DNA of 39,957 nucleotides from an uncultured Clostridia bacterium. Lineage in GTDB: Bacteria; Bacillota; Clostridia; Christensenellales; Borkfalkiaceae. The stretch lies in the NCBI GenBank assembly GCA_944336975.1, contig CALVLH010000014.1, positions 1 to 39,957 of the forward strand, given 5' to 3'. Shown piece by piece: positions 5,980 to 8,656 of the stretch. Numbering within the stretch: position 1 is the first letter of the stretch; each line of letters starts with the position of its first letter. The notes beneath the pieces were generated by a model. It saw only the letters and a list, made by a program, of their open reading frames with translations, did no database searches and was not told where the DNA came from. The translations under genes and the position numbers were made by a program.

Positions 5980-7200
5980 TCATTTGGGAAGATAAGAGCG
6001 AAATTGTTCGGCGTATTCGGCGGGGATGATGACCGAAATCTTCGCTCCGTCGTCGGTGTATTCGACCGAACGTTCCGTCAGGAGCGCCCGGATCTTTCCG
6101 TATTCCGCCAGCCTGTCATAGGGAACGAACAGCTCTGCCCGTTGATATTCGTCGCGAAGCGCCTCAAAGATGCGGCGTTTCAGGACATCGAGTCCCGTGC
6201 CGTTTTTGGCGGAAATGCACACGGCTTCGCGGGGAAGAACGTCCCGATCGGGCGCGACGTCGCACTTATTCATGACGAGCAGATAGGGGGAGGCGAAGCC
6301 GAGCGAACGAAGGGTGGAAAGAGTGGTCTCCATCTGCGTCCGATATTCGCCCGAGGCGTCGCAGACGATGAGTGCGAGATCGCAATGGAGCGCGCTCTCC
6401 AAAGTGGAATGAAATGCCTCGATGAGCTGATGAGGCAGGCTCTGCAAAAAACCGACGGTATCGACCATGAGGAAGGGAACGCCTTCGATCTCGAAGGCGC
6501 GCGCCGTCGGATCCAGCGTCGCAAAGAGGGCGTCTTTGACGAAGACGTCCGCGCCCGTCATCGCATTGAGGAGGGTGGATTTTCCCGTATTCGTATATCC
6601 GACCAGCGCGATCGTACGGACGCGCTCTTTTTTACGGCGCTCCGTCTGCATGGCGCGCCGCTTCGCCGTCTCGCGCAGCTTTTCTTCCAGAGCGTGGATG
6701 CGCGTGCGGATATGGCGGCGATCCGTTTCCAGTTGCGTTTCGCCCGGACCGCGCGTTCCGATCCCGCCCCCGAGCCGCGAAAGCGCTTCGCCTTTGCCTT
6801 TCAGGCGCGGGTAGAGATATTTGAGTTGCGCAAGTTCGACCTGTATCTTTCCTTCGCTGCTCTGCGCGCGCAGGGCAAAAATATCGAGGATGAGCGTCGT
6901 GCGGTCGATGACCTTCCGATGGTCGAGCGCGGCGGAAATGTTCAGCGTCTGGGAAGGGGAGAGCTCGCCGTTGAAGAGCACGGTCACGTCGTCCAAGCCC
7001 TCCAAGCGCTCTTTCAATTCGCGGAGTTTGCCTTCCCCGATATATGTCGCGGGGTTGATCTCGCGCACGTTCTGAGAGATCGAGCCGGCATAGCCCGCGC
7101 CGGCGCTCTCGATCAGCGCGATCGCTTCCTGTAAAAGTTCTCTGTCATGCTCGCCCGTGAGCGGCTGAATGATATAGATGATCTCTTGTTTTTCCGTCAT
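5980..7200 (-). CDS. hflX: GTPase HflX, ribosome-associated
   Basis: A 406-residue protein with the HflX layout: N-terminal substrate domain (about 1-165), the glycine-rich linker GGGIGTRGPGETQLETDRR, a coiled region, then a G domain with the P-loop GYTNTGKST (G1), the G3 motif DTVGF and the G4 motif NKCD. HflX binds ribosomes, can split stalled 70S particles under stress, and acts in the cytoplasm. The gene follows the recombinase gene by 5 bases and is probably cotranscribed with it. GAGGAAG lies upstream of the ATG. hflX next to a tyrosine recombinase is an arrangement I recall from other clostridia. Confidence 0.95.
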   Translation of the reverse strand: MTEKQEIIYIIQPLTGEHDRELLQEAIALIESAGAGYAGSISQNVREINPATYIGEGKLRELKERLEGLDDVTVLFNGELSPSQTLNISAALDHRKVIDRTTLILDIFALRAQSSEGKIQVELAQLKYLYPRLKGKGEALSRLGGGIGTRGPGETQLETDRRHIRTRIHALEEKLRETAKRRAMQTERRKKERVRTIALVGYTNTGKSTLLNAMTGADVFVKDALFATLDPTARAFEIEGVPFLMVDTVGFLQSLPHQLIEAFHSTLESALHCDLALIVCDASGEYRTQMETTLSTLRSLGFASPYLLVMNKCDVAPDRDVLPREAVCISAKNGTGLDVLKRRIFEALRDEYQRAELFVPYDRLAEYGKIRALLTERSVEYTDDGAKISVIIPAEYAEQFRSYLPK

Positions 7201-7205
7201 AGATT

Positions 7206-8276
7206 TCAGTCTTCCTCGTCGTCGGGAATGTCCGTTTTATGCAGGCGGACTTTGCCTGCCACGGCACGGCGATGATCTTCCGTGATCGCGGCGTAATGCT
7301 TTCTCGTCGTATTGACGTCGCGATGCCCGAGCACGTCCGCGACGATATAGATGTCGCCCGTCTCGCGATAGAGGCTCGTGCCGTAAGTGGAGCGCAATTT
7401 GTGAGGCGTGATCTTTTTGAGCGGAGTGACGATCTTGGCATATTTTTTGACGAGATTTTCCACCGCGCGCACGGTGATCCTCTTATATTGCAGAGAGAGG
7501 AACAACGCGTGTTCTTCGGGCGGTACGCGCGGGTCTTCTTCCTTTTGCGCGAGATATGCCGCCAACGCGTCTCCGACTTCTTCCGAAAAATAGAGGATTG
7601 CCTTATTTCCGCCTTTTCGCGTGACGACAAAGGAGTTATTGCTGAAATCGATGCTCTCGTCGTTGAGTCCGACCAGCTCGGAAATACGGATCCCTGTGCC
7701 GAGAAAGAGGGTAAGGATGGCGCAATCGCGGATCTTCGTCTTGTCGTGATACCCGCCCGCATGGCGCGACAGCCCGCTCCCGAATTCGGCGACGTCGAGC
7801 AGAGAGGAGACCTCATCCGTTTCCAGACGGATGATCTCTTTTTCGTGCAATTTCGGCGTGGCGACCTTTGCGGAATGATTGACTTCGATCAGTCCCTTGT
7901 TGAAGAAATATTTGTACATCGCGCGGACGGTGGAGAGCTTTCTCGCTTTGGCCCGTTCATCGCAGGACAGCCTGCGGCCGCGAAAGCGATAGTTGGAAAG
8001 ATAGCTTAAAAAGATCTCCAGATCGGTATCCGTGACTTGTTCCAATTCCTCCAACGTGATCTCGCGAAGGGGCTTTTCCCGCAATTTCTTGCGCGACAGG
8101 AAATCGAAAAAGATGCGCAGATCGTAGACGTAATTCAGGCGCGTCAACGTACTCGTGCGCTGTTCCACGCCGCGCAGATAATCTTCGCAGAACGGGGGAA
8201 GTTCGGCGAGAAGTTCATCGATCTTGTCAAGATTGCGGAGATTGCGCTCCGCATAGTAATTGTCGTTCTTTGCCAT
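7206..8276 (-). CDS. Tyrosine recombinase, XerS-like (Xer family)
   Basis: A 356-residue tyrosine recombinase. An N-terminal SAM-like DNA-binding domain (about 25-135) is followed by the catalytic domain with Arg197 (GTGIRISEL), Lys221 (VTRKGGNK), His292 and Arg295 (TPHKLRS), His318 (LGHRD) and nucleophile Tyr328 (KHYAAI). Length, N-terminal pattern and ITPHKLRSTYGTSLY recall XerS, the lone dimer-resolution recombinase of streptococci, more than XerC or XerD. The frame extends to 8312, but that stretch carries a perfect sigma-A promoter, so ATG 8276 is chosen. The transcript would begin at this ATG (leaderless). A dif-like site lies about 350 bp upstream. XerC-like is the cautious alternative name. 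Confidence 0.88.
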   Translation of the reverse strand: MAKNDNYYAERNLRNLDKIDELLAELPPFCEDYLRGVEQRTSTLTRLNYVYDLRIFFDFLSRKKLREKPLREITLEELEQVTDTDLEIFLSYLSNYRFRGRRLSCDERAKARKLSTVRAMYKYFFNKGLIEVNHSAKVATPKLHEKEIIRLETDEVSSLLDVAEFGSGLSRHAGGYHDKTKIRDCAILTLFLGTGIRISELVGLNDESIDFSNNSFVVTRKGGNKAILYFSEEVGDALAAYLAQKEEDPRVPPEEHALFLSLQYKRITVRAVENLVKKYAKIVTPLKKITPHKLRSTYGTSLYRETGDIYIVADVLGHRDVNTTRKHYAAITEDHRRAVAGKVRLHKTDIPDDEED

Positions 8277-8283
8277 ACATGAC

Positions 8284-8312
8284 ATTATAGCACGAAGCGA
8301 GAGAAATGTCAA
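8284..8312 (-). promoter_or_regulatory. Consensus promoter of the recombinase-hflX operon (leaderless)
   Basis: On the minus strand TTGACA (plus 8307-8312), a 17-bp spacer and TATAAT (plus 8284-8289) match the sigma-A consensus exactly. Only 7 bases separate the -10 from ATG 8276, so transcription should start at or within a base or two of the start codon and no Shine-Dalgarno can be present. Confidence 0.9.
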
Positions 8313-8326
8313 TTTTACGAATAGTT
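8313..8326 (+). repeat. Lone 14-bp half-site beside the recombinase promoter
   Basis: TTTTACGAATAGTT at 8313-8326 is identical to the right arm of the dif-like site (8642-8655) and abuts the -35 box of the recombinase promoter. No second arm at 6-bp spacing is visible. It could be a binding site for the recombinase itself or for a shared regulator. Confidence 0.7.
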
Positions 8327-8620
8327 TCGCAAAAATATTTTAAGAAGACAGGGGATCCGTCGTGAGAACGCAAAAAAATCAAAAGTAAAAAGGGGAAATG
8401 AGCTGAAAAACGACAAAAAATAAACGAATGAGAGAAGAAATTGCATTAAAACTAAGAGGAATGAGAAAAAATTGACAAAAAAACAAAAGAAAAAAACGGG
8501 GGAAGCAGGATATTTCAGCAAATAATCATTAAAAACTGCCCTCGTTTCGGAGAAAATCAAAGAAATTTATGCCATTCTTCCCTGTTTTTTGATCGTTAAA
8601 TTGTGCAGAGTGGACTAAGA

Positions 8621-8656
8621 TAACTATTCGCAAAACACCGCTTTTACGAATAGTTA
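8621..8656 (+). other. dif: dif-like Xer recombination site (candidate)
   Basis: Left arm TAACTATTCGCAAAA (8621-8635) and right arm TTTTACGAATAGTTA (8642-8656) are inverted copies at 14 of 15 positions. They flank the asymmetric 6-bp spacer CACCGC (8636-8641). Two inverted arms around 6 bp is the core layout of Xer target sites; the 28-bp core would be 8625-8652. The arms do not match the standard XerCD dif consensus, but the A-run/T-run edges of the spacer recall streptococcal difSL. The recombinase gene lies next to it. Confidence 0.6.

Follow-up and report, generated by a model that had tools for sequence, protein, structure and literature searches.

A single-recombinase Xer/dif module, probably for chromosome dimer resolution, in most of an order of Clostridia, with a half-site at the recombinase promoter

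The classical dif of XerC/XerD has an 11-6-11 layout with unlike arms. In Cre/loxP of phage P1, a single recombinase serves a site whose two 13-bp arms are symmetric and enclose a short spacer, and loxP is used to cyclise P1 DNA. Lone-Xer systems are described from a few groups, namely streptococci and lactococci, some epsilonproteobacteria, Legionellales and archaea (PMC5357621, PMC9765430). XerS of streptococci and lactococci is described as one 356-aa recombinase whose gene lies immediately beside its site, difSL, the arms of which are unequal and flank a central region of 11 bp (PMC5357621). XerL/dif of the Legionellales is described as an order-wide lone-Xer system with uninterrupted arms, xerL and dif being >400 kb apart (PMC9765430). 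Among the matches listed from the open-licence literature (titles and abstract openings), none reported a lone-Xer system in the order treated here or a self-regulating resolvase.

We analysed a window of 39,957 nucleotides (NCBI GenBank assembly GCA_944336975.1, contig CALVLH010000014.1, positions 1 to 39,957 of the forward strand) from the draft genome of an uncultured gut bacterium of the genus Candidatus Gallimonas, which NCBI places in Clostridia incertae sedis and which we take to belong to the Christensenellales of GTDB. Judging from sequence and genome comparison, the site and the recombinase gene listed below very probably (probability about 0.88) form a lone-Xer module for chromosome dimer resolution, with the site as its dif.

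5980..7200, minus strand: hflX, the next gene downstream of the recombinase gene (Pfam; synteny)
7206..8276, minus strand: lone Xer-type tyrosine recombinase, 356 aa (ORF with ATG at 8276; PF00589 and PF02899 by Pfam)
8621..8656, no strand assigned: dif-like site with 15-bp arms, 14/15 matching
8623..8635, no strand assigned: left conserved 13-bp arm, ACTATTCGCAAAA (column counts, 26 genus sites)
8636..8641, no strand assigned: 6-bp spacer CACCGC, different among species, the presumed region of strand exchange
8642..8654, no strand assigned: right conserved 13-bp arm, TTTTACGAATAGT (column counts, genus sites)

The arms of the 36-bp inverted repeat at 8621-8656 are TAACTATTCGCAAAA and TTTTACGAATAGTTA, complementary at 14 of 15 positions, and the ATG of the recombinase gene lies 344 bp downstream. 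A preliminary description of this DNA had reported such an element, with a 6-bp spacer, about 350 bp from a 356-residue recombinase with complete catalytic residues, and all of this is confirmed: an alignment of 18 sequences shows no variation at R197, K221, H292, R295, H318 and Y328, the six residues that form the catalytic set R-K-H-R-H-Y in this family. The predicted fold of the recombinase matches XerA, XerH and XerD (model quality modest). By symmetry alone the palindrome is only mildly unusual and not compelling: dinucleotide shuffling of the intergenic DNA around the site gave a match of 14/15 in 3 of 2000 trials, shuffling of the whole window gave one in 3 of 200, and a second inverted repeat in the window reaches 15/15. 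The site is considered real because of its conservation, not its symmetry.

The 32-bp core occurs once in the 1.72-Mb draft genome (up to three mismatches allowed). With the spacer left free, the site was found in 56 of 61 genus genomes, at one place in 54 and at two in G008 and G074; a backwards control pattern had no match in the same 61 genomes. Of 30 genus loci, 26 have it upstream of the orthologous recombinase gene, and two of the four without it are truncated by contig ends; the genus sites have nearly invariant arms and a variable spacer. Beyond the genus, an orthologue of the recombinase (47-59% identity) is present in 22 of 24 genomes of other families, and 17 of the 20 loci counted among these 22 genomes (G059 and G060 were left out) carry a site built in the same way, which starts 40-1258 bp upstream. 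A degenerate site pattern matched 164 of 200 order genomes (once in 152, and not at all in 36), and the control pattern matched one of the 200. The single genomic copy and the conservation in relatives anticipated by the preliminary description are thus both observed. That description had also spoken of a XerS/difSL-like system in a clostridium; a lone-Xer module is indeed present, but it spans most of an order, not one odd clostridium.

The site also marks a switch in strand composition. The GC skew of the plus strand in the window is +0.062 to the left of the site and -0.053 to its right, and the skew is higher on the left in 30 of the 31 named loci with a site, L067 being the exception (the skew and octamer counts omit L039, L050, L062 and L064, with site scores <20, from the 35 named loci). 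Over 400 kb of G044, the best skew changepoint falls at 194,272, which is 456 bp from the site (193,816). The changepoint of G007, a genome with weak skew, lies 5.5 kb away from its site, and G036, which has dif and xer at separate places, shows no skew flip at the site. Three genomes are single contigs, taken as closed, and each has its change of skew sign at the site, i.e. at 2,270,627 in G091 (5-kb blocks of +0.04 and -0.15), 1,211,333 in G183 and 25,323 in G093; G091 was sampled in 18 stretches and the others in the 20 kb around the site. The arc from dnaA to xer covers 0.94, 0.87 and 0.98 of the half circle in these three genomes, respectively, and, by hand arithmetic, 0.94 in G114. This agrees with the expectation that the site should lie opposite the origin: there is one site per chromosome, at the terminus, roughly opposite dnaA.

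The octamer RGAGGGGA is oriented with respect to the site. In G007, where it was chosen, 131 copies point towards the site and 3 away, and the changepoint bracket of 108,215-110,860 contains the site (109,184); in 31 other loci, 73 copies point towards the site and none away. Polarity, although weaker, is also seen for the reversed octamer AGGGGAGR (78:7 in G007), which suggests that the polarity of RGAGGGGA is partly a general strand bias. The genome also encodes an FtsK gamma domain (67.7 bits over cut-off). RGAGGGGA behaves like an FtsK-guiding sequence and is a candidate for this role in the genus, where FtsK would read it.

The preliminary description had proposed that the recombinase acts alone, and no XerC/XerD pair was found. 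A single PF00589 protein was found in the source genome, a draft that is 93.7% complete, so that a second recombinase might be missing from it; no second chromosomal Xer was found in that draft. Across the genus, exactly one PF00589 protein was found in 11 of 61 genomes and none in 1 of 61, and the rest have extras. None of 121 order genomes reached the XerD cut-off (TIGR02225, 329.6 bits, against 145.9 bits in the source genome), but this cut-off is strict, being met by just 4 of 14 control genomes, and is therefore weak proof of the absence of XerD. An extra XerD-like protein scoring 207-280 bits is present in 8 of the 121 genomes.

The recombinase gene lies in a core chromosomal neighbourhood: hflX is directly downstream in 32 of the 35 named loci (some are cut by contig ends) and glgB is upstream in 26 of 35. 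hflX is a conserved neighbour outside the mechanism. In three genomes where dif and xer sit on different contigs, dif is beside glgB.

An exact copy of the 13-bp arm, absent from the preliminary description, lies between the site and the gene, at the predicted promoter of the latter:

8313..8325, minus strand: promoter half-site, ACTATTCGTAAAA on the gene strand, the presumed operator
8307..8312, minus strand: -35 box TTGACA, abutting the half-site with zero gap, where the spacer would be
8284..8289, minus strand: -10 box TATAAT, 17 bp from the -35 box and ending 7 bp before the ATG

With the -10 box only 7 bp from the ATG, the recombinase transcript is probably leaderless. The arm is 0-1 bp from the -35 box in 23 of 29 genus loci despite differing flanks (L012 and L023, with too little upstream DNA, were omitted). 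Among the six misfits, the arm is 15-16 bp off in L014, L017 and L019 and 61 bp off in L013, and neither arm nor promoter was found in L020 and L029. Outside the genus, an arm lies within -3 to +6 bp of the -35 box in 12 of 45 loci, mostly inside the full dif site, and an arm adjoining the -35 box was not found in the other 33; this set omits L133 and L158 (same genus) as well as L144, L151 and L156 (duplicates), and two same-family loci remain. When the arms were shifted at random, 0 of 5000 trials reached either count (means 4.4 for the genus and 3.8 for the others), in a test that leaves relatedness among the loci in place. The half-site is also present in all four checked loci without a nearby dif (L030, L032, L039 and L050), where dif was probably moved away from xer by rearrangement. 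A half-site that recurs at the promoter and is kept without a dif nearby suggests autoregulation, and from its position and conservation we consider it likely that the recombinase regulates its own gene through this arm. Because the -35 box stands where a dif site has its 6-bp spacer, it would be covered by a bound monomer, and repression is the simplest reading.

Directly outside the half-site, nine further base pairs (8326-8334, TTCGCAAAA) match part of an arm in the reverse direction; such a partial arm was not observed in most of the 30 upstream sequences from the genus. Separately, one genus of family f19 has, in addition to the full site, another palindrome, imperfect and with TATTTG as its spacer, up to ~300 bp upstream of xer (L261, position 3215, with matching places in G128, G164, G205 and G252), which may be another operator form.

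The half-site might instead be a degenerate or relic copy of dif, left by duplication or by movement of the site and with no regulatory role. Half-sites do look like one dif arm, the distance between dif and the gene varies so widely that sites evidently move, and half-site variants in the genus are often unlike the dif-arm variants (e.g. L005, L008 and L018, among L003-L022 compared). A relic would be expected to decay, however, whereas the arm keeps its place at the -35 box between differing flanks and persists where dif is no longer near. Moreover, in two genomes of family f16 the half-site and the dif arms carry a common variant, TCTTTTCGCAAAA, while in a third (L148) the two variants differ. 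We take these comparisons together to reflect recognition of half-site and dif by one protein, though not as proof of it, and consider a relic unlikely.

Autoregulation could also have the opposite sign, with the promoter arm serving activation, for example through DNA bending or contact with RNA polymerase at the -35 box. Seven loci of other lineages have an arm whose outer edge falls at the -35 box, from 1 bp within it to 2 bp upstream, and a position at the upstream edge of the -35 box is also used by activators. In the genus, by contrast, the -35 box itself occupies the spacer position, and tyrosine recombinases embrace the spacer, as Cre and XerH structures illustrate. We therefore regard activation as improbable and repression by the recombinase as the preferred form of autoregulation.

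Sites of the same kind occur in viruses. The exact inner site was found in 17 viral contigs and the backwards pattern in none; a second form of the pattern, run without a control, brought the total to 26. A relative of the recombinase was detected in one of the 26 viral stretches (2.5-15 kb each) and in none of the other 25 at E up to 1e-10. In 15 of the 26 contigs, the site and a gene for the terminase large subunit are no more than ~1 kb apart; mostly one or two neighbouring ORFs were scanned per contig, L238 and L250 apparently represent one and the same phage, and common flanks are found in L237, L248 and L251. These terminase-side sites, which have host-type arms, are in L243, L245, L249, L238, L242, L244, L246, L247, L250, L268, L270, L271, L273, L275 and L276. 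Other viral contigs with a site include L237, L240, L241 and L251 (89-126 kb) and L248 (37 kb); dUTPase genes are near the site in L237, L240, L241 and L248, ParB-like and replication-initiation proteins are encoded near it in L237, and an anaerobic ribonucleotide reductase in L251. Some order genomes contain additional sites: G091, G114 and G153 have a second one beside prophage portal or terminase genes (L254 at 9989, L255 at 10002 and L260 at 9904), G095 and G110 also have second sites, and G169 has two extra sites, two nearby ORFs that were scanned there matching transposases.

We do not favour the view that the viral sites mimic the host dif for integration. Just one (CATGTC) of the 19 viral spacer types is found among the 40 host types (some genomes are counted twice in the host set), which makes multimer resolution or cyclisation likelier than integration at the host dif. 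The terminase-side site is possibly a cyclisation site like P1 lox, or a multimer-resolution site, that uses the host recombinase.

As to the family of the enzyme, the preliminary description had called it XerS-like. A stronger version of this idea is that the recombinase is XerS itself and acts with a variant of difSL, the system having been acquired or inherited from Streptococcaceae. XerS is the best NCBIfam model for the protein (NF003462, 196 bits), the protein length and the arrangement of the module are equal, and the inner AAAA-N6-TTTT core is also present in difSL of L159, a top-scoring XerS locus. The score falls below the equivalog cut-off of 267 bits, however, and no genome among the 200 of the order reaches it. 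In a quick maximum-likelihood tree, built from 72 chosen proteins (SH-aLRT support, no bootstrap; XerH, XerA and XerL left out), the order forms a clade (98) that includes four proteins from other orders of the class and stands apart from the XerS clade (99); the branch that unites these two clades against the XerC/D-like proteins has a support of 91 and is not firm. Membership of XerS is thus rejected by curated cut-off and by tree, and this stronger version seems very unlikely to us. The central reading of the preliminary description, a lone recombinase with its own dif, is supported with its family assignment corrected; the spread over the order, the half-site on the promoter and the viral copies go beyond it.

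L159 also bears on the promoter. TTGAAA lies inside its right difSL arm, followed after 17 bp by TATACT, and the two make a plausible xerS promoter at this one locus. Since the difSL arm overlaps the plausible -35 box, promoter overlap may be common to XerS and may be older, and difSL may also regulate xerS, as far as a single locus can indicate.

That the element is the attachment or resolution site of a mobile element and the recombinase its integrase, as a tyrosine recombinase adjoining an inverted repeat and the similar sites in viral contigs and prophages might suggest, is rejected as highly improbable given the core-gene neighbourhood with hflX, the order-wide clade and a site that is mostly single, lies at the terminus and differs in spacer between species.

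We infer the following sequence of events for the lone-Xer module: (i) one tyrosine recombinase would bind both 13-bp arms of a single dif at the replication terminus; (ii) when a chromosome dimer forms, its two dif copies would pair at the septum, probably under the control of FtsK, which would activate the reaction; (iii) strand exchange by the recombinase across the 6-bp spacer would yield two monomers; and (iv) the same recombinase probably binds the lone arm at 8313-8325, where the bound monomer would cover the -35 box and repress its own gene. Most of the order appears to resolve joined chromosomes in this way, with one recombinase at one terminus site.

More tentatively, and at somewhat less than even odds, these parts may belong to one wider scheme. 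In most of the order, one resolvase would be its own transcription factor through a half-site in which the -35 box stands for the missing spacer, so that dimer resolution would be coupled to the level of the recombinase; the link may be old, given difSL of L159. Phages would have dif sites of their own, often close to terminase and in most cases with spacers not shared with the hosts; they would use the host enzyme for cyclising or resolving their genomes, a task for which P1 has its own Cre.

These results add an order of Clostridia, whose named records among our matches are metagenome assemblies, to the groups with lone-Xer systems. The nearly symmetric site, with its many natural variants, suits the question of how one enzyme keeps strand order, and it offers a terminus marker for assembling and orienting genomes of the order. 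The promoter half-site leads to a testable proposal, i.e. that a chromosome resolvase regulates itself, and the viral copies point to a reliance of phages on the host resolvase.

Compared with known systems, the module resembles XerS/difSL in its lone 356-aa recombinase and in a site adjoining the gene, but has equal and nearly perfect 13-bp arms around a variable 6-bp spacer, whereas the difSL arms are described as unequal (PMC5357621). XerH/difH of Helicobacter and Campylobacter differs in its outer arms and in the consensus spacer of difH, a single CTATAA while the spacer here varies; the sequence match to XerH is weak (E 2e-6). With XerL/dif, compared by its description, the module shares the order-wide lone Xer and the uninterrupted arms, but xerL is >400 kb from dif there (PMC9765430). 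The fold, the catalytic residues and the presence of an FtsK gamma domain are common to XerC/XerD, which employs two recombinases, a pair not found here. Cre/loxP is similar in its symmetric 13-bp arms, short spacer and one recombinase, and the terminase-side viral copies recall loxP, but the enzyme here is a host chromosomal recombinase. In brief, by cut-off and tree the recombinase is not XerS, but the module would work like XerS/difSL and XerH/difH.
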